From: Catellatospora sp. TT07R-123
GTDB taxonomy: Bacteria > Actinomycetota > Actinomycetes > Mycobacteriales > Micromonosporaceae
Assembly: GCF_018327705.1 (NCBI RefSeq)
Contig: NZ_BNEM01000002.1
Coordinates: forward strand, 2,976,001-3,040,000
Direction of reading: 5' to 3'
Length of the DNA: 64,000 bases
The stretch's first letter is position 1. Every line of letters starts with the position of its first letter. Below, piece by piece: positions 44,421-53,687 of the stretch. The position numbers and the translations under genes were made by a program. The notes below the pieces were generated by a model. It was not told the DNA's origin. It saw nothing but the letters and a program-made list of their open reading frames with translations, and did no database searches.

Positions 44421-44488
44421 GGCTGCGCTTTCGGGGAAAGTGCTGGAATCCGAGCGTTCGTTCGTGCAGTTTCCCCGAAAGTGCAGCC
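44421..44488. repeat. TTTCGGGGAAAG palindrome, imperfect copy
   Basis: 28-base arms (44421-44448 with 44461-44488, four mismatches) around the core CTTTCGGGGAAAG. Same sequence family as the perfect copy at 53622-53687. Lies between the tRNA terminator and the carboxypeptidase stop. Confidence 0.75.
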
Positions 44489-49357: not shown

Positions 49358-49556
49358 CGTCTAAGGTCCTCTCCGTCCGGGCGCGGGGTTTCGCACCGGG
49401 ACAGACACGGAGCCCCGGCGGCCCCGGGTTGCCCGGGTGGACGCCCCGAGCGGCTGTGGTGATCGTCATAGCGGGCCGGGCAACCCTGCGGCGGCCCGCT
49501 TCCGTGTTCCTGCCGCACGGTCCGCCCGAACGCGGGCAGGACGCCGACAGGCCGGG

Positions 49557-50123
49557 ATGAGACGAGGTGACGCTTTGCTGGGATGGCGGGACCGCCGCGC
49601 CCCCGAGGCCGACTTCGTCGCCTTCTACGCCGAGCGCGCCGACCACCTGCGCAAGACCGCGTACCTGCTGTGCCGGGACTGGCATCTGGCCGAGGACCTG
49701 GTGCAGACCGCGTTCACGAAGCTCTACCGGCACTGGCACCGGGTCGAGCGCCACGACGCCCTCGACCAGTACGCCCGCCGCGTGCTGCTGCGCGCGTTCC
49801 TCGACGAGCGGCGGCGGCCGTGGCGGCGCGAGTACGCCACCGAGCCCGGCAGCAGCGCACTCGACAGCGCCGTCCGCGACGAGTACGCCGAGGAGGGGTC
49901 CGCGCTGCACGCCGCGCTGGTCCGGCTGCCCCGGCGGCGCCGAGCGGTACTGGTGCTGCGCTTCTGGGCCGACATGTCGGTCGAGCAGGTCGCGCAGGCG
50001 ATGGATTGCTCGACCGGCACCGTGAAGAGCCAGACCGCCCGCGGCCTGGCACAGCTGCGCGAACTGCTGGACGACGGCACGGTCGACGCCGACAGCCTGC
50101 GGCCGAACTGGGGGATGCGATGA
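49557..50123 (+). CDS. SigE-family ECF sigma factor
   Basis: 188 aa from the ATG at 49557; a TTG at 49575 with GAGG upstream is an alternative. Region 2: FVAFYAERADHLRKTAYLLCRDWHLAEDLVQTAFTKLYRHW. Region 4: ALVRLPRRRRAVLVLRFWADMSVEQVAQAMDCSTGTVKSQTARGLAQLRELL. Lacks regions 1 and 3, as ECF factors do. It overlaps the downstream membrane protein by 4 nt, so that protein is the likely anti-sigma partner. It is divergent from the efflux operon. Confidence 0.92.
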   Translation: MRRGDALLGWRDRRAPEADFVAFYAERADHLRKTAYLLCRDWHLAEDLVQTAFTKLYRHWHRVERHDALDQYARRVLLRAFLDERRRPWRREYATEPGSSALDSAVRDEYAEEGSALHAALVRLPRRRRAVLVLRFWADMSVEQVAQAMDCSTGTVKSQTARGLAQLRELLDDGTVDADSLRPNWGMR

Positions 50124-50926
50124 CCGACGTGAAGGACCTCTGCGACCGCATCCTCGACGCGCCCGCGCCCCCGTTGCGCGACAGCGCGCAGGTGCTGGCC
50201 GCCGCCCGGCACGCCGACCGGCGCCGGACCCGCCTGGCCGCGGGCGGCGGCCTGGCCTGCGCCGCCCTGGCCGCCGCCGCGGTGGCCGCGCTGCTGCCCG
50301 CCGCCCCCGGCCCCGCGCCGCTCGCGCAGCAGACCCCGACCGCCGCCGCGGTCTCGGCGGTGCCGCTGCCGCGGCTGCCCGGACCCGACGCCGCCCACGC
50401 CCACGGCGGCCGCATCGCGCAGGTGCTGACCGGGGCAGTGCCGTCCGGGTACGCGGTCCGCCCCGACGGGGCCACCGACACCTGGCGCCTGGCCGCCGAC
50501 GCGGGGGCGCTGCCGCGCTACGTCTCGGTGACCAGGCTCGTCGTCTCCGACGACGGCGGCGAGGGTTCCCTGTCGGCGGCCCTGATCGGCGACGGCGGCG
50601 GCGTCCCCGGCGGCGACCTGTGCGCGGCGGCGGTGACCACCCGGCTCACCGCGTACGTCGAGCTCGGGCCCGCCACCTGCGCCGTCGCCACGGTCGGCGG
50701 GGTCGCGGTGCGCACCGACACCGCCGCCGACGGCGGCCTCACCGCGACCCGGTTCCTGACCGGCGGCTTCCTCACCGTCCGCTGGCGGCCCGGCACCGGT
50801 GACGCGGCCACCGCCGGGCAGCCCTGGACCGCCGAGCAGGGCACCGGCCGCCCGGCGCTGCGGCCGTCGGCGTTCACCGGCGAGCTGCTGGCGCGGGTGG
50901 CCGCCGACCGGCGGCTGCTGCCCTGA
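50120..50926 (+). CDS. Membrane protein paired with ECF sigma factor (putative anti-sigma)
   Basis: 268 aa. Cytoplasmic N-terminus of ~40 residues (TDVKDLCDRILDAPAPPLRDS), one membrane helix (LACAALAAAAVAALLP), then an Ala/Gly-rich outer domain. There is no zinc-binding HxxxCxxC motif, so it is not a ZAS-type anti-sigma. The coupling to the sigma gene suggests it holds the sigma factor at the membrane. Confidence 0.65.
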   Translation: MTDVKDLCDRILDAPAPPLRDSAQVLAAARHADRRRTRLAAGGGLACAALAAAAVAALLPAAPGPAPLAQQTPTAAAVSAVPLPRLPGPDAAHAHGGRIAQVLTGAVPSGYAVRPDGATDTWRLAADAGALPRYVSVTRLVVSDDGGEGSLSAALIGDGGGVPGGDLCAAAVTTRLTAYVELGPATCAVATVGGVAVRTDTAADGGLTATRFLTGGFLTVRWRPGTGDAATAGQPWTAEQGTGRPALRPSAFTGELLARVAADRRLLP

Positions 50927-51015: not shown

Positions 51016-52272
51016 GTGGACGGTGACCGGATCACGCTGGCAGCACTGCTGGCCGGCGAGCCCTCCGCCGAGGCCTGGGAGCAGGCCTGGCCGCTGCTGG
51101 AGCAGGCATCCCCCGACGAGCTGGCCACCGCAGCACCGCTGCTGCGGTCCTGGCCGCCGCGGCTGCGGCCGATGCCCGACGCCTGGTGGCAGCAGTACGC
51201 CGCAGGCCAGTCCCGGCCGTGCCACGCGCTGGCGGCCTGGCGGCAGCTCGGCGACCTCGACCACGTCCAGAGCGGACGCCCGGCCCTGGCCGAACCCGAC
51301 GAGGACGCGGACTTCGCGTACTTCTACCACGGTGCGACCTCGGTGGCCTGCCCCGACGACCCGCGCTGGCTGGTCGTGACCGCCGCCGCCGAATGGCACC
51401 ACAACGGCGGCGACATCGTCGTCTGGGGTGCCGTGCCGCAGCTGCCGTCGCGGATGCTGCTCGACGGCGCCCACTTCCACGACGAGGCCCTGGACACCTC
51501 GCTCAGCCCCGACGGCACGGTGGCGGTCACCTCGGTCGAGGGCCGTCTGCACGCCTGGGCCGTGCCCGAGGGCACCGCGCTGTGGCAGCTCGACCTCGGC
51601 CCGACCGCCGACGGCGACGACTTCTTCGACGTCGACCGGGCCAGCGTCCGGATCGGGTTCAGCGCCGACGGCAGGCTGGTCGCGGCCGGTTCGGCGGCGC
51701 ACGGCGTACGCGTGGTGGACACCGCCTCCGGCGAGGTCCGCCTCAGCACCCCCGCCGATCCGTGCGGTCCGGTGGCGCTGAACCGCGACGGCGGGCGGCT
51801 GGCCCACGCCGGTGGCGGCGGCGAGATCGTGATCCGCGACGCCGCCACCGGCGAGACCGTGCTACGCCACGACACCGGCCTGGCCGGGGTGAACGCGCTC
51901 GCCTTCGCCACCGACGGGACCGGCCTGCTGGTCGCGGGCGGGCTCGGCGGCGAGGCGGGCCTCGTGCCGGGCGCGGCGCTGCTCACCCTGGACGGCGACC
52001 GGGTGACCGGCACGTCGCTCGTGCCCTCGGGCAGCGAGCTGCCCGCCGACTCGCCCCTGGCGATCCTGTGCACCCGCTGCGTATGGGCCGAGCACGGCCC
52101 GCTCGTCCACGCCGTGGACGACAGCGGCACCGTCCTGTTCGACGGCACCGGCCGCGTCCTGTGGACCGAACCCGGGATGGCGGCGGGCAACTTCTCCGCC
52201 GACGGGCGCATCCTGGTCCTGGTCAGCGAGACGATCAGCGCGGTGTTCGCCGACGCGCTGCCACCCGCCTGA
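51016..52272 (+). CDS. WD40-like beta-propeller protein
   Basis: 418 aa from a GTG with AAGGGGG 5 nt upstream. A helical N-terminal ~110 residues precede repeated beta-propeller blades: DTSLSPDGTVAVTSVEGRLHAW, IGFSADGRLVAAGSAAHGVRVVD, LNRDGGRLAHAGGGGEIVIRD, LAFATDGTGLLVAGG. Blade signatures S-P/A-D-G are clear. No signal peptide, so cytoplasmic. Likely a protein scaffold; its position between two ECF loci may be chance. Confidence 0.8.
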   Translation: MDGDRITLAALLAGEPSAEAWEQAWPLLEQASPDELATAAPLLRSWPPRLRPMPDAWWQQYAAGQSRPCHALAAWRQLGDLDHVQSGRPALAEPDEDADFAYFYHGATSVACPDDPRWLVVTAAAEWHHNGGDIVVWGAVPQLPSRMLLDGAHFHDEALDTSLSPDGTVAVTSVEGRLHAWAVPEGTALWQLDLGPTADGDDFFDVDRASVRIGFSADGRLVAAGSAAHGVRVVDTASGEVRLSTPADPCGPVALNRDGGRLAHAGGGGEIVIRDAATGETVLRHDTGLAGVNALAFATDGTGLLVAGGLGGEAGLVPGAALLTLDGDRVTGTSLVPSGSELPADSPLAILCTRCVWAEHGPLVHAVDDSGTVLFDGTGRVLWTEPGMAAGNFSADGRILVLVSETISAVFADALPPA

Positions 52273-52312: not shown

Positions 52313-53044
52313 TCAGCCCGCCGGCACCGCGCGGGCGGGCGGGACCGGTCCGGCCGGGTCGACGTTGTCCTGGTCCCCCGGCCCGTCGTGCGGCGGGGCG
52401 CCCGGCACCAGCCGTACCCTGCCGTCCTCGCTCTTGATCTGCACTGCGACCCCGCTGACCGCCGCGAGCGGCACCGGGCCGTGGTAGCGGGAGTCGTTGA
52501 CGGCGGGCCGGTTGTCGCCCATCACGAACACCTGCCCGGCCGGGACCGCGACGGGGGCGAACGGCGCCGTGGCCTGGTCCAGGTACGGCTCGGCCACCGC
52601 CACCCCGTTGACCGTCACCGCGTCGCACGTGCCCGCGGCGGTGGCCGGGCAGGCGACCGTGTCGCCCGGCAGCCCCATCACCCGGAAGATCGCGTCGTAC
52701 TCGTCGCCGCCGTACGCGATGTGGATCTGCACGATGTCGCCGCGGGCCGGGCTCAGCGACCGGTCGAACACGACCCGCTCGCTGATGCCCACGGTGGGCT
52801 TCATCGCGCCACTGGGCTCGACGACGGTGAAGAAGTCGGTACGGCCGAGCAGCGTCGCGGCGGCCAGCGTCGACAGGGCCACCGTCCCGGCGCCCAGCCC
52901 GAGCAGCAGGTTGCGCCACCGGCGCAGCCGCCGCCCGCGCCGGGCCTGGCCCAGCACCCGGCCGGCCAGCCCGGGGTCGGCCTGTACGGACGGGGCGGCC
53001 GCGGCGGCCAGCGTCCGCAGCCGCTCAGACGGATCGTCGGTCAT
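52313..53044 (-). CDS. Signal-peptidase-I-like membrane protein lacking both catalytic residues
   Basis: 243 aa. The fold is S26: box B EPSGAMKPT (residues 77-84), box D-like YDAIFRVMGLPGD (116-128), box E GDNRPAVNDSRYHG. But Ala80 replaces the nucleophilic Ser of PSGSM, and Phe120 replaces the Lys of the KRV motif, so peptidase activity should be lost. The N-terminal ~45 residues are charged and cytoplasmic (SERLRTLAAAAAPSV, basic RRGRRLRRWR), then one helix (LLLGLGAGTVALSTLAAATLL). It overlaps the ECF sigma gene by 4 nt and sits where an anti-sigma factor would be. A sensor/anti-sigma role is inferred. Confidence 0.8.
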   Translation of the reverse strand: MTDDPSERLRTLAAAAAPSVQADPGLAGRVLGQARRGRRLRRWRNLLLGLGAGTVALSTLAAATLLGRTDFFTVVEPSGAMKPTVGISERVVFDRSLSPARGDIVQIHIAYGGDEYDAIFRVMGLPGDTVACPATAAGTCDAVTVNGVAVAEPYLDQATAPFAPVAVPAGQVFVMGDNRPAVNDSRYHGPVPLAAVSGVAVQIKSEDGRVRLVPGAPPHDGPGDQDNVDPAGPVPPARAVPAG

Positions 53045-53562
53045 CGGGTGGTCTCCTTCTCGGGGTGGGGCGCGGGCAGCAGGGCGGCGCGGACCTTGTC
53101 CAGCCCGCGCGCGAGGTTGCTCTTGACGGTGCCGGCCGAGCAGCGCATCAGCGCCGCGGTCTCGGCCTCGGACAGCCCGTCGACGACGCGCAGCACGACG
53201 GTGACGCGCTGGCGGGGCGGCAGCTGCGCCAGCAGCTGGTCCAGCTGGGCGCGGGCCGCGACCGCTTCGGCGTGGTCGGGGTCGGCGCCGATCCGGTCGG
53301 GCTCGACGTCGACGGGCACCGGCACCAGATGGGTGCGGCGTCCCCGGTCCTTGGCCAGGTTGACCAGCACCGCGCGTACGTACGCCTCGGGCGAGTCCAG
53401 CCGGCGCGACCAGTGCCGGGTCAGCCGCAGCAGCGCGGTCTGCAGCACGTCCTCGGCCTCGGCCGGGTCGGGCACGAGCAGGCGCGCCAACCGCAGCAGC
53501 CGGTCGCCGTGCGCCCGCACGAACCGGGTGAAGTCGAGCTCTTCAGAGGGGGTCACACCCAT
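53041..53562 (-). CDS. SigE-family ECF sigma factor
   Basis: 173 aa from the ATG at 53562. Region 2: FTRFVRAHGDRLLRLARLLVPDPAEAEDVLQTALLRLTRHW. Region 4: QLPPRQRVTVVLRVVDGLSEAETAALMRCSAGTVKSNLARGLDKVR. No ribosome site; possibly a GTG two codons in. The long perfect palindrome at 53622-53687 lies 60 nt upstream. Coupled to the catalytically dead signal-peptidase-like gene. Confidence 0.93.
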   Translation of the reverse strand: MGVTPSEELDFTRFVRAHGDRLLRLARLLVPDPAEAEDVLQTALLRLTRHWSRRLDSPEAYVRAVLVNLAKDRGRRTHLVPVPVDVEPDRIGADPDHAEAVAARAQLDQLLAQLPPRQRVTVVLRVVDGLSEAETAALMRCSAGTVKSNLARGLDKVRAALLPAPHPEKETTR

Positions 53563-53621
53563 CAGAAACGAGAACCGCTCGCCATCCGTTGCACGCCCCG
53601 CCCCGTCTTGCGGTGCCGGTC

Positions 53622-53687
53622 CGTGCAGTTTCGGGGAAAGTGCACGAATGGACGCCCCGATTCGTGCACTTTCCCCGAAACTGCACG
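53622..53687. repeat. TTTCGGGGAAAG palindrome, perfect copy
   Basis: Perfect 28-bp arms (53622-53649 with 53660-53687) and a 10-nt loop. Second copy of the family seen at 44421-44488. Lies in the 194-base gap between the sigma gene and the secreted protein ending at 53757. Confidence 0.85.

Follow-up and report, generated by a model that had tools for sequence, protein, structure and literature searches.

What does a signal peptidase-like membrane protein do directly behind an ECF sigma factor gene once its catalytic residues are gone? The question is raised by two genes on the minus strand of the window, the whole 64,000-nt stretch of Catellatospora sp. TT07R-123 DNA analysed here. The upstream gene (53041..53562) encodes a 173-aa protein with Sigma70_r2 and r4_2 domains, which passes the curated TIGR02983 cut-off (143.3 bits versus 141.55) and is thereby assigned to the SigE family of ECF sigma factors. 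The downstream gene (52313..53044) encodes a 243-aa membrane protein with a Peptidase_S26 domain (PF10502, E 4.9e-25). A sequence-only reading of this DNA had delimited both genes and placed a 4-nt overlap between them (53041-53044), which we confirmed. A plus-strand gene at 51016-52272, whose product has weak WD40/beta-propeller matches, converges on this operon.

The same reading had described a charged cytoplasmic N-terminus and one helix, and hydropathy and a structure model gave the same picture (all coordinates of the operon refer to the minus strand). Residues 1-45 (52910..53044) are predicted to be cytoplasmic and are Arg-rich close to the membrane; they would be the candidate sigma-binding part. 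A single predicted membrane helix covers approximately residues 46-66 (52847..52909; 46-64 by hydropathy). It is followed by the S26 fold at residues 69-214 (52403..52840), which is predicted to lie outside. The model recovers this fold (pLDDT 83.8), with helices at residues 5-22 and 24-67. The protein ends in a family-specific C-terminal tail of about 40 aa (GAP...VDP...PP; 52316..52432), the end of which is predicted to be disordered (pLDDT under 50 at residues 222-242).

The S26 motifs are kept, as had been claimed, and the GD.R....DSR box is invariant in an alignment of the 10 family members described below. HMMER alignments against E. coli LepB and other S26 chains place Ala80 (codon 52805..52807) at the nucleophile position (LepB Ser90) and Phe120 (52685..52687) at the general-base position (LepB Lys145), in agreement with the sequence-only reading. 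A MAFFT alignment of 88 S26 proteins gives the same placement. Val182 (52499..52501) aligns to LepB Ser278, which we take to support the Lys. The 88 rows are the 10 family members and 78 other S26 relatives; the 78 come from 80 loci, with L038 left out as a duplicate of G005 and L042 as a false 14-aa frame.

Both catalytic residues are absent from nine of the ten family members (nucleophile/base A/F, A/F, E/Y, N/M, A/M, A/F, A/L, A/S, S/K and G/R) versus 2/78 other relatives (S/K in 68, S/R in 8, N/N in 1 and G/S in 1). The substitutions are therefore not sequencing errors or chance, and the loss of the dyad is conserved. In a second set of mostly actinobacterial relatives, with one spurious row of 48 set aside, 2/47 lack both residues and 5/47 lack at least one of the dyad. 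The Ser278 position is Ser in 76 of the 78 non-family rows and Ala or Val in eight of the ten members. The deep-branching S/K member (L133) keeps Ser, Lys and Ser278, and L119 also keeps Ser at the Ser278 position. No Lys or His is invariant across the 10-member alignment, so there is no obvious replacement base. The window protein has the fold and the GD.R....DSR box of type I signal peptidases (S26A) and lacks their Ser nucleophile and Lys base; judged by its sequence, it is an S26A homologue and not a functional member. Two ordinary signal peptidases, encoded adjacently at ~3.51 Mb of the same genome, retain Ser and Lys, and export therefore need not depend on the S26-like protein.

Altered dyads were also seen among the other relatives. 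Eight rows from Olsenella and relatives (L073, L093, L096, L098, L099, L102, L107 and L109) all have Arg for the catalytic Lys and keep the Ser nucleophile, and three relatives have damaged dyads (Val/Val in L015, Ala/Lys in L021 and Ser/Ile in L035). Dead S26 proteins are encoded in an Acidobacteriota MAG (Asn/Asn, L091:3731-4567) and in Candidatus Roslinia (Gly/Ser, L116:3848-4411). These two loci contained no match to the sigma factor, and Pfam detected no sigma factor among the six neighbours scanned.

A genome survey for sigma-gene/dead-S26 pairs, which the sequence-only reading had put forward as a check, showed that the pairing is conserved. We found 10 full-length pairs and one deletion remnant in four families of Actinomycetes, all next to one sigma clade. 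Among 354 genomes of Micromonosporaceae, the S26-like query gave eight matches at E 1e-22 or better (seven members, the window included, and G148), and the sigma query gave eight at E 1e-45 or better (the same seven and G284). The S26 gene, or in G284 its remnant, is present in 8/8 genomes of these 354 that carry the family sigma. A profile was also run against 394 genomes drawn from the class and returned five matches. One is the window, and three (L132, L133 and L134) are new sigma-linked members that belong to three other families; the fifth is an ordinary S/K enzyme whose locus has no sigma match. At E 1e-32, no further member appeared when we sampled the orders of the new members (22, 13 and 196 genomes) and the phylum (396 genomes). 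As a control, the fetched DNA of 79 other S26 loci and that of 27 loci (L011-L037) gave no match to the sigma factor. The earlier reading had named intact homologues beside unrelated genes as evidence against it; within the family, the sole intact member (L133) adjoins the same sigma.

The genes overlap by 4 nt in eight of the ten full-length pairs and by 8 nt in G445; in G617, there is a 1-nt overlap or a 14-nt gap, depending on the start chosen. The G284 remnant (L128:1501-2170) has a normal partner gene start and the family-typical last residues, with the membrane and S26 parts gone. A short frame of ~50 aa is left of the S26-like gene, and the sigma gene and promoter are intact. We compared the flanks of the 11 loci over up to 7-8 kb per locus (less for G034 and G445), and at E 1e-20 or better 94/526 flanking frames have a counterpart in another locus. 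Such matches connect the window with G005 and, less so, G284 with both; the remaining four links, of one frame each, are sigma genes matching the family sigma. The feature common to the 11 loci is the two-gene unit (in G284 with the remnant). Plasmid carriage was rejected: tblastn matched four plasmid records, and no match extended over 80% of the query. Three carry a Leptolyngbya annotation as leader or signal peptidase I, and the fourth match is to a stretch without annotation.

Phylogenetic analyses placed the family in one clade (100/99) on a long branch of an S26 tree of 38 rows, built without rows from the canonical signal peptidases of the window genome. L133 is outermost in this clade, and the fork that separates it is weak (92/34). 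In a sigma tree of 40 rows, the 11 family sigmas form a single clade (100/100), separate from 29 other SigE-family sigmas encoded in the genome; within it, L133 and L134 fall outside the remaining nine (97/93). A single loss of catalysis after the L133 split would fit these trees, short of proof. With Ser, Lys and Ser278 all retained in the deep-branching L133, the S26 domain was probably still catalytic when it was recruited and lost its activity later. By NG86, dN/dS ranges from 0.28 to 0.65 over 12 pairs of the S26-like gene and from 0.14 to 0.33 over nine pairs of the sigma gene, with synonymous differences of up to 0.59 per site that make the deeper values rough. On these estimates, the S26-like gene is under purifying selection.

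The family carries marks of its own. Cys132 and Cys140 are present in 10/10 members, and the column of the latter is a gap in 78/78 others. Counted from residue 204, the C-terminal tail measures 39-42 aa in all ten members and at most 25 aa in the 78 other S26 rows. The position of LepB Ile86 is Glu or Gln in 10/10 members and Ile or Val in 69/78 others, and that of LepB Tyr143 is Ala or Ser in 8/10 members. We take both positions to line the substrate pocket. Their alteration disfavours a plain signal-peptide binder and weakens that part of the sequence-only reading, which had offered signal-peptide binding as one possible role. An A-x-A motif falls within residues 41-75 in 9/10 members, which is weak evidence of cleavage as the helix is Ala-rich.

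Is the place behind the sigma gene informative in itself? TIGR02983 matches 81 genes in the window genome, 25 of them over the cut-off, and we examined the best 30 of the 81 (loci L136-L165). All 30 have a membrane partner: 19 have it as a separate gene and 11 as a fusion to the sigma factor. The S26-like gene thus occupies the position expected for a cognate membrane regulator, as had been supposed. The 19 separate partners lie close behind the sigma gene, with an overlap of exactly 4 nt in 12 at the start chosen, and carry a membrane helix in their first 90 residues, preceded by a mostly Arg-rich N-terminus. In the 11 fused cases, the sigma frame runs on into a membrane helix and a further domain. 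A second hydrophobic stretch occurs in three of the 30 (L155, L136 and L143), so the rule of one helix has exceptions. When 40 window genes were tested in a similar way, three were positive, one of which belongs to the other SigE pair of the window. This pair lies ~2 kb away on the plus strand (49536-50926) and consists of a second SigE-family sigma gene with a 4-nt overlapping gene for a 268-aa membrane protein without a Pfam hit.

The outer domains in these 30 loci are seldom recognised by Pfam (one Germane/Gmad2 and weak propeller-type hits). Among the 18 other separate partners, 15 gave no Pfam hit at E 0.001, and an S26 hit is absent from all 18. For N-terminal similarity, a first shuffle control gave 10/18 separate partners and 3/11 fused linkers with scores reached by at most 5 of 200 shuffles. 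With the Arg-rich patch left out, 23 of 1000 shuffles reached the score of the best of the 18 partners, and 36 and 53 those of the second and third; the set mean was equalled by 179 to 239 of 1000 shuffled sets, the range depending on how the missing L140 score is handled. We therefore rejected homology of the N-terminus to those of other SigE partners; the data support a common layout only.

The region before the sigma gene is conserved as well. In the window, a -35-like element, TGCAAC (53588..53593), and a -10-like element, TCTCGT (53568..53573), precede the sigma ATG, the latter by 5 nt in a leaderless-like arrangement. The motif TGCAAC-N14/15-(T/G)CNCGT stands just before the sigma start in 11/11 operons, and its TGCAAC element is conserved in all of them. 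Nine upstream regions read TGCAAC, 14 nt (15 in one) and TC(T/A/G)CGT; L133 shares the motif, and L134 has the variant TGCAAC-N14-GCTCGT. This position in every operon makes autoregulation of the sigma/S26 operon likely.

The strict pattern TGCAACN14-15TCTCGT occurs once in the 9.17-Mb genome, at the sigma/S26 operon, and its reversed form twice. Counted over the whole genome, the pattern is no more frequent than expected by chance; its weight lies in its position. Over 11 genomes, a looser motif gave 33 hits, of which 10 lie at the operons; the other 23 compare with 18 for the reversed control. A wider regulon read from the motif was therefore rejected, the 23 hits not rising above that control. 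One hit in G420 (L191) falls within a stretch of repeated TGCAACG words, away from the pair, and was not counted as a target. Upstream of the promoter lies a perfect 28-bp inverted repeat with a 10-nt loop (53622-53687), and an imperfect second copy is found at 44429-44480. No exact copy was present in the other fetched loci, except those covering the same place. The repeat is possibly a scattered palindromic element.

We interpret the S26-like protein as a membrane-anchored cognate regulator of the sigma factor. Most likely it is an anti-sigma factor whose cytoplasmic part is short and class-II-like and whose S26 domain is a non-catalytic sensor; we give this reading a probability of about 0.6. 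The properties tested for membership among cognate anti-sigma factors were the operon, the overlap, the predicted topology and the co-conservation. That the protein is functionally linked to the sigma factor is more certain than the sign of the link, and we hold it to be very probable. The pair would form a two-gene transmembrane switch that is probably self-activating. One helix would anchor the protein, with ~45 residues inside and the non-catalytic S26 domain and the 40-residue tail outside. The short cytoplasmic segment would most likely keep the sigma factor inactive until the outer domain meets a ligand or the S26-like protein is cut. The released sigma factor could then transcribe its own operon from the TGCAAC/TCTCGT promoter.

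Several observations speak against an anti-sigma role. The cytoplasmic segment is unlike those of the other SigE partners under the strict control, and the motif search yields no targets beyond the operon. G284 keeps the sigma gene without the membrane and S26 parts, L133 retains the catalytic residues, and the family amounts to only 10 members here. The S26-like protein has no anti-sigma family match in Pfam or NCBIfam at E up to 0.01. A class I anti-sigma factor is described as having an N-terminal four-helix domain of more than 50 aa, or a zinc-type motif (PMC7406223); here the cytoplasmic part has ~45 aa, no anti-sigma family hit, and neither Cys nor His in residues 1-45, and the protein does not fit that class.

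The S26-like protein could instead be what the sigma factor mainly targets or acts through, induced from its own operon to serve as a secretion chaperone or to bind peptides. The shared operon and promoter agree with this, as does the lack of any other regulon visible by the motif. The best fold match is SipA of Streptococcus pyogenes, an inactive signal peptidase homologue described as working without catalysis (PMC4049620). However, the cleft is reported as kept in SipA, whereas the Ile86 equivalent is Glu or Gln throughout the family. The gene order also resembles that of the 18 other separate SigE-sigma/membrane-protein pairs, 11 of which have the same 4-nt overlap at the start chosen and none an S26 partner. 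This suggests a regulator slot with exchangeable outer domains, and we consider the effector role unlikely. A positive partner, that is, a membrane anchor or co-activator taking the sigma factor to the membrane, would agree with the 11 of 30 SigE-family genes that encode a sigma factor fused to a membrane helix and a further domain. However, the fused ECF groups 48, 52 and 53 are described as expected to be inactive until proteolysis (PMC8999054). The fused form therefore argues for inhibitory tethering, which leaves a positive role with a low probability.

A peptidase that uses other residues would find a candidate in Ser78 (LepB Ser88), invariant in 10/10 members, and a precedent in the complete Ser, Lys and Ser278 of L133. 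We judge it very improbable given the missing invariant Lys or His, the loss of Ser278 in 8/10 members, and the Phe, Tyr, Met or Leu in place of Lys145 in 7/10. The patchy occurrence (7/354 family genomes) and the G284 remnant would suit a chance neighbourhood or a decaying pseudogene. However, with ten conserved pairs in mostly different contexts, dN/dS well below 1 and a conserved promoter, this is scarcely credible.

The preferred reading, a membrane-anchored anti-sigma factor, can be set beside known systems. SipA (PDB 4n31) is an inactive type I signal peptidase homologue that serves pilus assembly with a conserved peptide cleft, and no sigma partner is named in the parts of that paper available to us (PMC4049620). 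The window family shares its dead dyad but has an altered cleft position (Glu/Gln in 10/10 versus Ile/Val in 69/78 at Ile86), two added Cys, the added 40-aa tail and an ECF sigma factor as its partner. The Bacillus anti-sigma factors RsiV (of SigV) and RsiP (of SigP) are described as first cut by signal peptidases (PMC8844934, PMC7593790). There an active signal peptidase does the cutting, whereas here the presumed anti-sigma factor would itself be a dead signal peptidase.

Anti-sigma domains under 50 aa have been set aside as possible class II (PMC7406223). The class II factors of the CnrY type are described with a short cytoplasmic segment, like the ~45 aa of the window protein. The likeness is one of segment length and of the predicted helices (5-22 and from 24 on), and no sequence match supports it. 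To our knowledge, CnrY has no S26 domain. In the actinobacterial groups ECF48, ECF52 and ECF53, the sigma factor is described as fused to a membrane helix and a further domain (PMC8999054), as in the 11 fused genes of the window genome, whereas the window pair consists of two separate overlapping genes with an S26 outer domain. An inactive S26 fold (PMC4049620), and membrane anti-sigma factors and fused ECF membrane proteins (PMC7406223, PMC8999054), were thus already described. In the open-licence literature, which leaves most subscription journals outside, we found no description of an ECF sigma factor paired with an S26 protein, and the combination with a dead S26 protein appears to be new with respect to that literature.

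The sigma pair is not the only case of a dead S26 protein next to a transcription regulator: two genomes of the same family as the window genome encode S26 membrane proteins, one fully dead and the other half-dead, that adjoin PadR-family genes. In G148 (L122:1495-2504, minus strand), the protein has Ala/Asp/Ala at Ser90/Lys145/Ser278 and is encoded directly downstream of the PadR gene, with a 4-nt overlap from a GTG start or a gap of ~40 nt from the first ATG. In G019 (L012:1513-2555, minus strand), it has Ala/Lys/Ser, and its gene overlaps the PadR gene by 4 nt. The two proteins are 44% identical over 198 aa. S26 recruitment beside regulators may have happened more than once, and the two cases serve as a lead. 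More tentatively, and with some doubt on our side, dead signal peptidase domains recruited repeatedly (by ECF sigma and by PadR) to form the outer, sensing part of a transmembrane pair that controls genes would relay the export state or another envelope signal to transcription without proteolysis of their own.

The window protein scores 75.1 bits against a cut-off of 47 with the NCBIfam equivalog model for signal peptidase I, which matches 10/10 members at E up to 0.001. Automatic annotation is therefore likely to file this dead regulator under signal peptidases. Should the anti-sigma reading be true, an essential export enzyme has been turned into a sensor, and L133, intact and beside the same sigma clade, opens the loss of catalysis to study. 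Active signal peptidases are described as triggering some Bacillus ECF sigma systems, and a regulator shaped like a signal peptidase would be an unexpected twist on these. The recurrence of the pair in scattered related bacteria suggests that the shell of an enzyme has been reused as a gene-controlling sensor.
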